Shown one piece after another: positions 1 to 48,767 of a stretch of DNA of 64,000 nucleotides. Below the pieces are notes generated by a model. The model worked only from the letters and a program-made list of their open reading frames with translations, was not told the origin of the DNA and did not search any database. The DNA lies in the NCBI GenBank assembly GCA_007128135.1, contig SKYA01000006.1, positions 19,000 through 82,999 on the forward strand, written 5' to 3'. The translations under genes and the position numbers were made by a program. The DNA is from Paracoccaceae bacterium (lineage in GTDB: Bacteria > Pseudomonadota > Alphaproteobacteria > Rhodobacterales > Rhodobacteraceae). Positions within the stretch are counted from its first letter, which is position 1. Each line of letters starts with the position of its first letter.

Positions 1-1154
1 GTGGCAAGCGCCTCCTCGCCCTGCGCGGCAAGCTGGGCAAGTTGCGCCTCGATCGGGGCCAGATCGGTCGCGTCGACCGAACCTATTGCGATGCGGAGTG
101 CCGCAAGCTCGGACTCGATCTCAGCCAGGTTGATCTCGGGCGCAGGTGCGTCCTGATCGCGCAGGGCCGCGATTTCTGCCTCTAGCGGGGCCAGATCGGG
201 TGCCGGTGGCAGGGCCGCAATCTCTGCGCGCAGGCTGGCCAGATCGGCGGACAGCGCCGCTGTCGGGTCCGCTTCGTCGCGCTCTTGCGGCAACAGGTAA
301 TGCGCGCCAAACCCGATCCCTCCGGCAACGACCCCGCCGATGAGCATCGGAAAGAACCCGGTCGAAGACCTGGCTGGCGGCGACTGGGGCGCAGAAGGGC
401 TGCCTGGACGGGTAGACTCTGCCCCGGTTTTGCTGGCAGGGGACGCGTCCGCAGACGCCGGGTCAAGCGCCGCGACGGGCGCTTGCTGTTCTGCCTCGCT
501 TTCCTCTGCCGGGCCGGGCAGACCGGAGCCGGATGCCGCACCGACATCAGGTGCAGCCCCGGTCGGCGCGTCGCCTTCGTTGTCCGCCGCAGCGTCGGGG
601 AGCGTCTCGTGCGGTGCCCCATCGCCCTTCGCCTCGGGCGAGTCCGCCGCGGGCGGCGTGTCCGAACCCGGCAACTCCTCAGGAGAGTCGGGATGTGAAC
701 CCTCTTCCAGGCCATCGGCCTGTGGCGCCCCGGCAGCCGGCGGAAACCCAGCACTTGCGGTCGCATCGGTTTCAGCCGAGGCAGGCATCGCCGGATCAGA
801 CTTCGGCTCCGGGATCACGTTTTCGGTTGTCACATGGTCGGGATCTGGCGCCGCGATGGCGCCATCGGCCACGGCGGCTGCAAGGGTGTCATCTCCTGCC
901 GCTGCACGCGACTCATCGTCATGCCGCTCGGGCGCCTCCGTGTTCCCGGAGGGGTCCGGGGCAACATCGGAACTGCCGGACTTCGCCTCTCGCCTCTGGC
1001 GCTCGGTGTTCCCTGCGGGAGCCGCGGTCTGCTTCAGGCTGCCGGACGCTTTCGTCTCGGGCGCCCCGACCTCTTGTTCTGCCGACCCGGTCGCTTCTGG
1101 CTTTGACGCTGAGCGCCCGCCGCCTGCGCGGCTTTTCCTGGTCGTCTTTCGCAC
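1..1154 (-). CDS. Mitofilin/Mic60-like inner membrane protein (COG4223-type), partial at left edge
   Basis: Minus-strand reading from a GTG at 1154 ([24 protein letters not shown]...): long acidic Pro/Ala/Glu-rich N-terminus, one TM ([23 protein letters not shown]), then coiled-coil-like sequence ([30 protein letters not shown]). Adjacent to hemD, the usual alphaproteobacterial context. Confidence 0.75.
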
Positions 1155-1200
1155 CAAAGCTTGACCCTCACTCCCGGCGCCGCACTGCAGCGGCATTACT

Positions 1201-1947
1201 TCAGTCACCATATCGCGGCTTTTCCGCAGGCTCAAGCGCCGCTTGCACGCGACCCAGTGCCGCGATCATGGCCGGGCCATCGGGGCGTGCCGCACAATGC
1301 TGACTGGCCCATGGCACAACCTGGGCGGCAGCCTGCGCGGCGGAACTTATCGCCAGCAGATGCAGGCGGGTGGACGGCGCGGTGCAGCCCTCCATCGCAG
1401 CGACCAGCAGCCGGGCCGAGCGCGGCGAGAAGACCGGCAGCACCACATCGCCCCCCTTCCCCAGCCGCGCACGCGCCGCGTCGGTCAGGGGCTGCGCGAC
1501 CTGCTCATAGACCACGCAGGCCTCGGCCTGCAGCCCGGCCGCGCGCAATTCGGCCGCGATGTCCATCGCGGCATGGTCACCTCGCAGATGCAGCACCGGT
1601 TCCTCGGGCAAGGCCGCCAGCAGCGCCGCCCGCAGGGATTGCGCATCGCCGGCCGCAACATGGACCTTTCCGAACCCTGCCGCCTGCGCGGCCTGAGCCG
1701 TTCGCGGGCCGACGCACCAGATCGGCCTGTCGCGCAGGGGCTTTGCCGCGACCAGTGCAGCAATGGCATGCTGCGACGTGGCCACGAGAGTCTGCGCGGC
1801 GCTCAAGACCTCCTCGGAGGGCGGCGCCGGCACGATCCGCAGCAGTGGCGCAACCAGCACCTCGCCGCGCCACCCCGCTGCGCGTGCAGCCTGCGCAAAG
1901 CGCAGGCTGTCGGCCTCGGGGCGCGTCAGGAACAGGCATGGCAGCAT
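1201..1947 (-). CDS. hemD: Uroporphyrinogen-III synthase
   Basis: ORF track with start moved to [25 protein letters not shown]; HemD-type sequence ([34 protein letters not shown]); divergent from tsaD. Confidence 0.8.
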
Positions 1948-10330: not shown

Positions 10331-11220
10331 GTCGTGCTCCCTGTTGGCTTCAGGTCCGGTGTCCGATCGCGGGGCCACCTTCCGGACAGCCGCGCGAGTC
10401 AGGGACCCGAGCCCATGTTATGATGACTGGATGTAACTGCCCCGTGACAGCCCATCCGGACGTGGCGCAGGATGACCCGCGCAGGACAAGGCGTCAAGCG
10501 CCTCGTGTAAAGCGAGGCAGGTTTCAGACTGCCCGCGGTATGGCGGAACACGCAAGGCCGGGACTTGACGCGGAGTGCCCAACCGGGCACCGCGCGATAT
10601 AAAGGACTGTCATGCGTCTTTCGCGCGGAAATCTCTGCCATTCCGGCGCGCAACCGACCTGGATGCCAGTCTTCAGGCAATGGCGACCGCAGCCCGGAAA
10701 CCGGGGCTTGCGCATGCCACCATCGCGATCAGACGGTCCTTCGGGAACGATCTGCCGAACCAGGATACCCTCAAGGGCCGCGCCATGGTCGAGGGCGCGG
10801 AGCACCCGCGATCCGCGGTACCATGGGCCGTCAGGTGTTCAGTCCGCCGGTCACCACGCGACTGTCGGTCGGGGCGGAAATTCCGATCACCCTCGCCGCT
10901 TCCCTTTGCGGTGACCTGCCCGCGTCGGCAGGCCGGACAGGGTCGCGCGTCTCGGGATCGGCGCATCGCGAGGACGCCTGCAGCGTGATGACGAACCACC
11001 GCGATTTCCCTGGCAGCAGCCGCAGGTGCAATGCGGACAGGTTTCGGGCACAAGCGATCCGGCTACGGCCATTCAGGGCGCGGAAGGGGTCATCAGATTT
11101 CGCGCGCCACCGGCTGCAGACGTGATAATGTCTGACCACGACAGATTGCGGCACCAGACCGCGGCAGAGGCAGCATCCGCCCGGCGACGCCCGGTCGAGA
11201 CCAGCACAAGCGACACCCGG

Positions 11221-31984: not shown

Positions 31985-32061
31985 GGCCCCGTGGCTCAAC
32001 TGGATAGAGCAGCCCCCTCCTAAGGGGCAGGTTGCAGGTTCGAATCCTGCCGGGGTCACCA
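31985..32061 (+). tRNA. tRNA-Arg (anticodon CCT)
   Basis: GGCCCCG...CGGGGTC-A-CCA acceptor, anticodon arm GCCCC-CTCCTAA-GGGGC, T-arm GCAGGTTCGAATCCTGC; encoded CCA. Confidence 0.95.
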
Positions 32062-45206: not shown

Positions 45207-45980
45207 TCACAGCGCCGTCCAGCCGCCATCCACCGAGATCGTGGTCCCGGTGATCTGCGCGGCAGCATCCGAACACAGGAACACCGCCGTGCCCCCCATC
45301 TGCTCGACCGTGGCAAACTCGCCCGAGGGCTGACGCGCGAGCATCACCTGTTTGATAACGGTCTCGCGGTCCATGTTGTGGGTCTTCATCTGGTCGGGGA
45401 TCTGCTTTTCCACGATGGGGGTCAGAACGTAGCCCGGACAGATCGCATTGCAGGTAATCCCCTTGCCTGCAGCCTCCAGCGCCGTGGTCCTGGTCAGGCC
45501 GACAATCCCGTGCTTGGCCGCGATATAGGCCGATTTGTAGGGGCTTGCCGTCAACCCATGGGCCGAGGCGATGTTGATCACCCGCCCCCAGCCCGCCGCA
45601 TACATGCCCGGCAGGGCGGCGGCCGTGGTGTGAAATGCCGACGAGAGGTTGATCGCAATGATCGCATCCCATTTTTCGACCGGGAATTCCTCGATCCGGG
45701 CGACATGCTGGATACCTGCATTATTGACCAGGATATCGCAGCCCCCCACCTGCCCGATCAGTGCGCGGCACTGATCGGGCCTCGACATGTCGGCCTGAAC
45801 GTATCGCACGTCGGCCCCGGTCTCGGTGGCCAGTTCCGCGGCCAGCGCGTGGTCTCCGGGGGCGTCAGTGAAGGAATTGATGACCACGCTTGCGCCCGCC
45901 CGTGCGAGTTCGCGGGCGATTCCCAGTCCGATCCCCGAATTCGACCCGGTCACGACAGCGCGTCTGCCTGCCAGCTGCAT
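45207..45980 (-). CDS. bdhA: 3-hydroxybutyrate dehydrogenase (SDR family)
   Basis: VTGSNSGIGLGIARELARAGASVVINSF...NNAGIQHVARIEEFPVEKWDAIIAINLSSAFH...SAHGLTASPYKSAYIAAKHGIVGLTRTTALE...CPGYVLTPIVEKQIPDQ. Confidence 0.93.
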   Translation of the reverse strand: MQLAGRRAVVTGSNSGIGLGIARELARAGASVVINSFTDAPGDHALAAELATETGADVRYVQADMSRPDQCRALIGQVGGCDILVNNAGIQHVARIEEFPVEKWDAIIAINLSSAFHTTAAALPGMYAAGWGRVINIASAHGLTASPYKSAYIAAKHGIVGLTRTTALEAAGKGITCNAICPGYVLTPIVEKQIPDQMKTHNMDRETVIKQVMLARQPSGEFATVEQMGGTAVFLCSDAAAQITGTTISVDGGWTAL

Positions 45981-46119
45981 CACTCTCTCCCTCATGCAAT
46001 GTCTCTGCCCCGCAGCATAGCCATCACAGCGACAATGACCAGAGGGCGCGGTGGCGGCGCGCGGCGCATCCGACCGCGACGACCGAGGCGCAAGCCGCTA
46101 CCGGTCTGACGACGCGCAC

Positions 46120-46146
46120 AAAAAAACGCCCGCACGAGGCGGGCGT
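46120..46146 (-). terminator. Intrinsic terminator (minus strand)
   Basis: Minus strand ACGCCCGC-CTCGT-GCGGGCGT followed by T7; 8-bp perfect stem. Confidence 0.85.
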
Positions 46147-46193
46147 CAGTTATTGAGGCAGGTTTCATACAGGCAAGAAACCTATCGAGCAGT
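46120..46193 (-). ncRNA. Candidate small RNA, about 74 nt
   Basis: -35 TTGGAA (46223-46228), 17-bp spacer, -10 TATATA (46200-46205), 7-bp hairpin AGGTTTC-N10-GAAACCT (46160-46183), then the 46120-46146 terminator; no convincing ORF. Confidence 0.55.
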
Positions 46194-46199
46194 GACTTA

Positions 46200-46228
46200 T
46201 ATATAACCCCTCTCGACGGGCCTTCCAA
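46200..46228 (-). promoter_or_regulatory. Putative sigma70-type promoter for the candidate sRNA (TTGGAA-17-TATATA)
   Basis: Direct reading of the minus strand. Confidence 0.55.
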
Positions 46229-46310
46229 GCTAAAAGTTTGAAAACTCGGGCAACGCATTGTAGCGTCTCGGGAAACCTGACCCTGCAATCACCCCGGAGC
46301 CGCCCGCACC

Positions 46311-48125
46311 ATGCCCGTATCCTGCCATTACAAAGCCGTTATCGCCGCGATCGTCCCCTGTGTGCTCGGGGCGGGACTGGCGCTTGCCGAACCGCTGCAT
46401 GGCATAGCTATGTATGGCGAGCCTGCCTTGCCACCAGATTTTGAGCATCTGCCCCATGTCAACCCCGATGCGCCCAAGGGCGGAAGGATCGTTCAGGGCG
46501 AGGTCGGCAGCTTCGACTCGCTCAACCCGCATATCCTGCGCGGCCGGACACCGTGGCAGTTGCAGTATCTCACCTATGAAAGCCTGATGGGCCGAAACTG
46601 GGACGAGCCCTTCACGCTCTACGGACTGCTGGCCGAATCGGTCGAGACGGATGCGGCGCGCAGTTACGTAGAATTTACCCTTCGTGAAGAAGCCCGATTC
46701 TCGGACGGCAGCCCGGTCACCGTCGAGGATGTCCTCTGGTCCTACGAGACGCTCGGCACGCTGGGCCATCCGCGCTATCATGGCACCTGGGCAAGGGTCG
46801 CCAGCGCCGAGGCCACCGGACCGCGTTCTGTGCGGTTCACCTTCACCGAACCCGACCGCGAACTGCCGCTGATCATGGGGCTGCGCCCGATCCTGAAAAA
46901 GGCGCAGTGGGAAGGGGTGGTTTTTGACGAATCGGGCACCTCCATCATCCCCATAGCGACGGCGCCATATGTCATCGACCGCTTCGAGGCGGGGCGCTAT
47001 GTCTATCTGCGGCGCAACCCGGACTACTGGGGCCGCGACCTGCCCTTCATGCGAGGTCAGGCCAATCTCGACGAGATCCGAATGGAATTCTTCGGCGATG
47101 CCACCGCCATGTTCGAGGGCTTCACCTCGGGGCTGCTGAACACCATGCGCGAGACCAACGCCAATGCCTGGAACACGCGCTACAACTTTCCGGCCGTGCA
47201 GGCTGGCGAGATCGTGAAATCCGAGATTCCGCACCAGCGCCCGTCGGGGATTTCGGGATTCGTGATGAACATGCGCAACCCGCTCTTTGCCGACTGGCGC
47301 GTGCGCGAGGCGATGATCTATGCCTTCAATTTCGAACAGATCAGCCAGATCGTGAATGACAGCGTGGACCCGCGCATCACCTCGTATTTCTCGAACTCGG
47401 AACTGGGCATGCGCCCCGGCCCGGCCCAAGGGCGCGTGGCCGAATTGCTGGCCCCCTTTGCGGATGAATTGCTGCCCGGCGCGCTCGAGGGCTACACGAT
47501 GCCGGTCTCGGATGGCTCCAGCGCGAATCGCGCCAACATGCGCGCCGCCACGGCACTTCTGGCTGAAGCCGGATGGGGGGCGGATGCTGCGGGCGTGCTG
47601 CGCAACGCCGATGGTTCTGCCTTCCGCTTCACCCTCCTGTTGCGGCAGGGCTCGAGCGAGGTGCAGGCGATTGCGGATATCTATGTCGAGGCGCTGAAAC
47701 AACTGGGAATGGATGTCACGATCAGCCAGATCGACGCGGCCCAGTATACCGAGCGCAGCAATGCGTTCGATTTCGACATGACCTACTACCTGCGCGGCCT
47801 CTCGCTCAGCCCCGGTGCCGAACAGCGGCTCTACTGGGGGTCCGAAGCCGCCAGCACACCCGGCTCGCGCAACCTGATGGGCGTCGAGAGCGCAGCGATC
47901 GACACGCTGATCGAGGGCCTGCTGACCTCGGAGGATCATGACGATTTCATCGCCACTGCCCGCGCGCTTGACCGGGTGCTGACCTCCGGCCGTTTCGTGG
48001 TGCCGTTCTGGTTCACCGACCGCGCCCGCATTGCCCATGCGCGCGAGTTGCGCTTTTCCTCGCGACTGCCGGTCTATGGCGACTGGATCGGCTTTCAGCC
48101 CGATGTCTGGTGGTGGCAGGAATAA
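46311..48125 (+). CDS. Extracellular solute-binding protein, family 5 (YejA-like)
   Basis: Signal peptide; HGIAMYGEPALPPDFEHLPHVNPDAPKGGRIVQGEVGSFDSLNPHILRG...YESLMGRNWDEPFTLYGLLAESVE: YejA-type sequence. Confidence 0.92.
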   Translation: MPVSCHYKAVIAAIVPCVLGAGLALAEPLHGIAMYGEPALPPDFEHLPHVNPDAPKGGRIVQGEVGSFDSLNPHILRGRTPWQLQYLTYESLMGRNWDEPFTLYGLLAESVETDAARSYVEFTLREEARFSDGSPVTVEDVLWSYETLGTLGHPRYHGTWARVASAEATGPRSVRFTFTEPDRELPLIMGLRPILKKAQWEGVVFDESGTSIIPIATAPYVIDRFEAGRYVYLRRNPDYWGRDLPFMRGQANLDEIRMEFFGDATAMFEGFTSGLLNTMRETNANAWNTRYNFPAVQAGEIVKSEIPHQRPSGISGFVMNMRNPLFADWRVREAMIYAFNFEQISQIVNDSVDPRITSYFSNSELGMRPGPAQGRVAELLAPFADELLPGALEGYTMPVSDGSSANRANMRAATALLAEAGWGADAAGVLRNADGSAFRFTLLLRQGSSEVQAIADIYVEALKQLGMDVTISQIDAAQYTERSNAFDFDMTYYLRGLSLSPGAEQRLYWGSEAASTPGSRNLMGVESAAIDTLIEGLLTSEDHDDFIATARALDRVLTSGRFVVPFWFTDRARIAHARELRFSSRLPVYGDWIGFQPDVWWWQE

Positions 48126-48251: not shown

Positions 48252-48767
48252 CTATGTGCCGGACGCAGCCGGGCGTTGCGGACAATCCCGCCGCACTTCT
48301 CGGTCCAGAAGCCCGGTCGCGATCAACATGCAGCGGTCGCGCGCCTCGAAGTAATAGCCCCGAGCGTACCACATCACCGCACGGTCGATATCGCCATCCG
48401 CGACCAGCCAGGCGCCGCGCAGGTAGCGGCCGGCATATCTGAGGTTGGTTTCTGCATCGAGCAACTCTTCCGGGCTGCCGGCAAACCCCATCTGGCGCGC
48501 GGTCTGCGGCAGGATCTGCATCAGACCCCAATAGGGGCCATTGCGCGCATGCGGCCGATAGTCGCTCTCGCGCTGGATGACCCGGTGCAGCAGCGTCTCG
48601 GGGATACCATGCTTGGCCGCATAGCGTTGCACGAGCTGGCGCATCTCGGGCGTCTCGCCAGGATAGAGCGCGGTCGGGGAAGCAGCCGCGCGCGAAACCT
48701 CGGGGCCGGGGCTGGCGCAGGCCATCAGACCGAAGCAAAGAATCGCAGGCGCAATCAGACGGATCAT
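48252..48767 (-). CDS. Lytic transglycosylase domain lipoprotein
   Basis: MIRLIAPAILCFGLMACASPG lipobox; HGIPETLLHRVIQRESDYRPHARNGPYWGLMQILPQTARQMGF: SLT-type motif. Confidence 0.93.
   Translation of the reverse strand: MIRLIAPAILCFGLMACASPGPEVSRAAASPTALYPGETPEMRQLVQRYAAKHGIPETLLHRVIQRESDYRPHARNGPYWGLMQILPQTARQMGFAGSPEELLDAETNLRYAGRYLRGAWLVADGDIDRAVMWYARGYYFEARDRCMLIATGLLDREVRRDCPQRPAASGT

Follow-up and report, generated by a model that had tools for sequence, protein, structure and literature searches.

The window, a stretch of 64,000 nucleotides from Paracoccaceae bacterium, carries on its minus strand a predicted small RNA (sRNA) gene at 46120..46193, with transcription expected to start at A46193 (+1) and to end within a T-run, which gives an RNA of ca. 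72-74 nt. The promoter is composed of a -35 element TTGGAA (46223..46228) and a -10 element TATATA (46200..46205) on the same strand; the order TTGGAA, 17-bp spacer, TATATA and a segment of about 74 nt given in the original prediction was found base for base. From its 5' end the RNA contains the segment CTGCTCG (nt 2-8, 46186..46192), a hairpin SL1 (nt 10-35, 46159..46184) with the loop TTGCCTGTAT, and an intrinsic terminator hairpin (46125..46147) that runs into a T7 tract (46120..46126), a potential Hfq-binding U-tail. The GC-rich terminator and the T7 tract are both present as described earlier. The same holds for the first hairpin, but its stem, previously given as 7 bp, is counted here as 8 bp including one G-U pair (arms nt 10-17 and 28-35). 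The predicted folding energy is -25.4 kcal/mol, as compared to -14.9 +/- 2.7 kcal/mol for shuffled sequences (z -3.9). The promoter agrees with the consensus at 8 of 12 positions, which is weak, and it is absent from the promoter-scan list; since the consensus alone is unconvincing, conservation was taken as the test.

The sRNA gene is flanked by bdhA, encoding 3-hydroxybutyrate dehydrogenase (45207..45995, minus strand; TIGR01963 above cut-off), which is a separate downstream neighbour, and by a yejA-like gene for a solute-binding protein of the SBP_bac_5 type (46311..48125, plus strand). The distance of 140 bp between the end of the sRNA and bdhA given in the original prediction applies to a start at ATG 45980 and shrinks to 125 bp if the upstream ATG 45995 is used. 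The divergent position relative to yejA is also found elsewhere: the sRNA lies divergently upstream in 78 of 80 loci with a YejA homolog, including those of Roseinatronobacter, Roseibaca, Salipiger, Actibacterium and Marivita, and the gene order bdhA-sRNA-yejA is the same in C. sphaeroides. The yejA promoter on the plus strand consists of TTGAAA (-35, 46238..46243) and TAGCGT (-10, 46261..46266; T, A and last T conserved at 95, 95 and 91%) separated by 17 bp. Its -35 element is the reverse strand of a near-invariant TTTTCAAAC block upstream of the sRNA, and is located 9 bp from the -35 element of the sRNA, back to back. This arrangement of the promoters explains the locked synteny of sRNA and yejA, and no functional link is needed. 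No permease genes follow the yejA-like gene, the next ORF being a lytic-transglycosylase-like one on the minus strand (48252-48767); the encoded solute-binding protein therefore appears to be an orphan in this genome.

Sequence searches matched the sRNA in 198 of 200 genomes, each representing a different genus of the family Rhodobacteraceae; the two genomes that lack a match are fragmented assemblies. Of the 36 genomes in the own genus set, 30 gave one copy each with a 121-base query, whereas the 24 other alphaproteobacterial families searched gave none. Alignment of 110 distinct copies showed that nt 1-41 (46193-46153) are identical in all of them, which is exceptional for a trans-acting sRNA. 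The column preceding +1 is conserved at 82% and the columns from -5 to -2 at about 50%, and this jump places the beginning of the conserved block at the predicted transcription start; its end coincides with the T-run. Averaged over pairs of copies, identity amounts to 1.00 in nt 1-41 and 0.89 in nt 42-74, as compared to 0.63 in the promoter and 0.29 in the downstream region. Because the aligned copies were the best BLAST matches, more divergent copies are under-represented in these values. Within the promoter, TTGG and TATA are 98-100% invariant (most relatives have TATAAA) while spacer and flanks drift, which indicates that the promoter is more than a chance resemblance; it is probably of the housekeeping type. 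In the terminator, the pair 46141/46131 covaries (C-G, G-C, A-T), as does the pair 46144/46128 (G-C, C-G), whereas every column of SL1 is invariant, and covariation is uninformative on this hairpin for that reason. The search for conservation and covariation proposed with the original prediction thus revealed a family-wide block with a covarying terminator, and the comparative evidence supports a free-standing gene for a trans-encoded sRNA of the Rhodobacteraceae at 46193-46120, with its own promoter and terminator. The sRNA is presumably transcribed in Paracoccaceae bacterium and would depend on Hfq.

The best candidate for a partner is the leader of the dcw cell-division cluster. In R. sphaeroides, the 5' leader of this cluster, ahead of mraZ, gives rise to the sRNA UpsM (PMC5089854), which accounts for about 60% of Hfq-bound sRNA (PMC5089854, PMC8307010). 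Prompted by this literature, the mraZ leaders of the own genome and of 47 other genera were compared. Each of the 48 includes a segment able to pair with the sRNA over 9-18 contiguous nucleotides (15.7 on average), whereas dinucleotide shuffles reach 7.1 (maximum 11) and all but one spot of the 64-kb window 5-10 nt. A 13-nt match at 10514 of the window (plus strand) was judged to be due to chance. The match usually involves nt 19-36 of the sRNA (46158..46175, minus strand), i.e. the loop and 3' arm of SL1, and the loop TTGCCTGTAT that had been suspected of interacting falls within it. On the leader side, the site CAGGTTTCATACAGGC is conserved at 86-100% per column over 16 nt, between A-rich or variable flanks at about 50%. 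A second site, (C)GAGCAG, is complementary to the 5' segment CTGCTCG of the sRNA and occurs at most 110 nt downstream of the main one (GAGCAG in 47 of 49 leaders). Apart from the sRNA gene itself, a genome-wide BLAST search with the sRNA as query gave a single match in the own genome, the dcw leader.

The predicted sRNA-leader duplex has an energy of -45 kcal/mol, versus -33 +/- 3 kcal/mol for shuffles, but energy prediction alone is permissive, with shuffled leaders reaching -44.8 kcal/mol; weight was therefore put on the length of the contiguous match, its conserved position and its accessibility. After opening of both RNAs, the main helix has a net energy of about -21.6 kcal/mol in the own genome and -14.1 kcal/mol in C. 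sphaeroides. As compared to 33% of shuffles, 38 of 48 leaders present the site in a loop that is closed by a stem of 10 bp or more. This stem, R1, is described as hardly conserved in sequence in the published UpsM study. Across genera it is rebuilt with compensating changes while the loop retains the antisense site (L171 = G000:C43:8300-10500; L141-L190). A constant antisense loop on an often-rebuilt stem offers a testable reason for the existence of R1, which can be examined in many genera.

We consider it quite probable that the sRNA works by base pairing with the dcw leader and UpsM, and that it does so as an RNA separate from StsR (see below). The SL1 loop TTGCCTGTAT would recognise the exposed site of 16-18 nt in the apical loop of R1, the first stem of the leader, after which the duplex would extend into the 3' arm of SL1 while the 5' end of the sRNA would clamp the second site, about 37 nt downstream. 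Such pairing would be possible on the full leader as well as on its terminated product UpsM. For C. sphaeroides UpsM, the predicted sites are nt 54-71 (R1 loop) and nt 107-113, and the known processing from 206 to 130 nt implies cleavage around nt 76, which is only a few bases 3' of the main duplex. The vicinity of the main duplex to this RNase E cut is the reason to prefer an interaction that is initiated by the loop and then spreads into the 3' arm. Pairing beside the processing site should alter how the leader is processed or the read-through into the genes for cell division, and/or lead to titration of the sRNA by the abundant UpsM. Several observations count against this reading: in silico blocking of the leader site does not by itself open the cleavage region of UpsM; in C. 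sphaeroides the uninterrupted pairing is reduced to 12 nt, followed by one mismatch and 5 nt; in this species, the only one with UpsM biochemistry, the published cleavage is attributed to StsR alone; and part of the invariant sRNA sequence is unneeded for leader pairing (see below). No other sRNA of R. sphaeroides is bound to Hfq in such amounts as UpsM, which heads the cell-division cluster, and the sRNA described here probably contributes to the control of cell division, either jointly with UpsM or by way of it; the binding in vivo, and regulation in either direction, would follow from the complementarity.

Alternatively, UpsM may act as a sponge that titrates the sRNA, the real targets of which are other mRNAs. 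The abundance of UpsM on Hfq is in agreement with such a role, as is the invariance of sRNA nucleotides that take no part in leader pairing: nt 9-18 and 37-41 are unneeded for it yet never vary, which implies further constraints or targets. Furthermore, one genome contains a second strong complementary site (L207 1501-1530, minus strand; G217:C2:1019892), where a small ORF (MTALITAKTEGGRLEEQ...), possibly an additional target in that genome, has its start codon covered by the complement of sRNA nt 3-30. However, no second target was seen in many genera, the recurrent complementary match being the dcw leader, and we regard a sponge function of UpsM as rather unlikely. In another genome, an intergenic antisense-like match to sRNA nt 2-35 with 85% identity was noticed (L209 559-592; G179:C101).

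A second alternative is that the sRNA is StsR (RSs0827) itself and as such already described. StsR is a Hfq-binding RNA of 72 nt under control of RpoHI/RpoHII which pairs with UpsM (PMC8307010, PMC8625941). Its length, compared to the 72-74 nt predicted here, and the pairing of both RNAs with the UpsM leader first led us to accept this identity, which was rejected once IGR_0827 had been located. StsR corresponds to IGR_0827, and the RSs numbers denote ordered intergenic regions (PMC8307010, PMC6509803). In the genome assigned to C. sphaeroides (G107), which has a 100% match to a cytochrome b fragment of PDB 5KKZ, landmarks are the CcsR cluster (RSs0680, 692.1-692.4 kb), UpsM (RSs0682, 694.7 kb) and mbfA (RSP_0850, 2601 kb), the latter near RSP_0847/SorX (RSs2461). 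Since these are ordered along the chromosome, IGR_0827 is expected near 850 kb, whereas the single C. sphaeroides copy of the window's sRNA is found at 1443997-1444071 (about 1444 kb) of the 3188524-bp chromosome contig, which corresponds by interpolation to about IGR 1383. At 858 kb, C. sphaeroides possesses another conserved small RNA locus, which recurs in 168 of the 200 genera and combines a strong terminator, a sigma-32-like (RpoH-type) promoter CTTTAA...CCTATCT and the invariant core TTCACTGTCCCTCGTTCCG. Its RNA matches UpsM over 11 nt (UpsM nt 13-23, towards the 5' side of the R1 domain), which fits the published opening by StsR of a double-stranded region to RNase E. From the intergenic numbering, the promoter type and the pairing site we conclude that StsR is encoded at 858 kb and that the sRNA of the window is another RNA; identity of the two is very improbable. 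It would need an StsR sequence beginning with ACTGCTCGATAGG, and TTCACTGTCCCTCG within StsR would exclude it. The own genome carries a copy of the probable StsR at G000:C73:6590-6639 (also L223 56-140).

Both RNAs are orphan sRNAs of about 72 nt (a predicted length in the case of the window's sRNA) with an intrinsic terminator, occur family-wide, and have predicted or known pairing with UpsM and the dcw leader. They differ in locus and sequence, apparently in the promoter (RpoH-type for StsR versus TTGG-17-TATAAA for the window's sRNA) and in the UpsM site: StsR would use nt 13-23 in the R1 stem, the window's sRNA nt 54-71 (R1 loop) and nt 107-113. The sRNA promoter shares TTG and TAT with RpoH promoters (PMC10673084) without having their C-14 T-13 pattern (PMC3441632), and no -14 consensus is present in the 110 sRNA copies. 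For rpoE, a published StsR target, neither RNA has a clear site in relatives, and this comparison does not discriminate between the two. If the window's sRNA and StsR both pair with the leader, two independent sRNA inputs, one housekeeping and one responding to stress through RpoH, may converge on it in nearly all Rhodobacteraceae, a proposal for which we see the arguments evenly balanced. On this view StsR and a non-StsR sRNA, the latter almost unaltered throughout the family and docking on a loop of the leader/UpsM that is made for it, would both adjust cell division via one leader.

That the sequence acts in cis, as a bdhA leader or attenuator, or is an antisense by-product that arises from the region of the yejA promoter, is suggested by its position between the two genes and its orientation, which is that of bdhA, but is hardly credible in view of the complete terminator that precedes bdhA, the conservation that stops at the T-run with none onward to bdhA, and the sRNA promoter that is conserved in its own right; the claim that the sRNA is not the bdhA leader therefore stands. 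Least credible of all is a tiny mRNA (ATGAAACCTGCCTCA...) starting from the ATG at nt 26-28, given that a conserved stop codon or ribosome-binding site is lacking, the frame ends vary between genera, and the invariance is at the nucleotide level, third positions included.

Comparison of this trans-acting sRNA with Rfam 15, as proposed earlier, gave no family above the gathering threshold (best sub-threshold scores 24.8 versus 41 and 21.6 versus 52 bits); the only gathering-level match in the window is a tRNA gene at 31985-32058. In the papers compared we found no description of the sRNA or its pairing, nor of its family-wide extent, invariance and dcw-leader partnership; the transcript may already be included in the R. 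sphaeroides sRNA list of 2009. The term 'undescribed' used originally holds in so far as no Rfam family or description was found, but not with regard to a transcript from an RNA-seq study that is probably an ortholog. This 'intergenic 134' of Paracoccus denitrificans is a putative sRNA of 84 nt detected by RNA-seq and RT-PCR (Gaimster 2016, PMC5107571); it is apparently encoded on the second chromosome and is conserved across Rhodobacteraceae, R. sphaeroides having it between the same neighbouring genes (PMC5107571). Similarly, the sRNA copies of P. pantotrophus and P. versutus are located on the second large replicon. The assignment is based on size, replicon and synteny, not on sequence or strand. 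Among other known RNAs, UpsM (RSs0682), which is derived from the 5' UTR of dcw by termination inside the leader, is a predicted pairing partner and not a homolog. CcsR1-4 and further Rhodobacter sRNAs that carry the CCUCCUCCC motif are likewise small Hfq-type RNAs from the same bacterial family, but this motif is missing from the window's sRNA, and those RNAs are derived from the 3' UTR of ccaF1.

Similar sequences were also encountered in viral DNA. Viral matches to GAAACCTGCCTCAATAACT were rejected as coding-sequence coincidences in AT-rich phages, with the exception of one true copy. A close copy of the sRNA is present on a phage or prophage contig (L280 1072-1140, minus strand; IMG/VR 3300021197_001411), directly after a tRNA-Met gene (1140-1216, minus strand) and beside a terminase small-subunit gene. 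Additionally, a member of the Microviridae (MH572320.1; L281 501-542) contains a weak complement (E 0.07) of the whole 5' half of the sRNA, on the mRNA-sense strand between the capsid and pilot genes, and the microvirus KP087940 shows a weaker match to the sRNA than MH572320.1.
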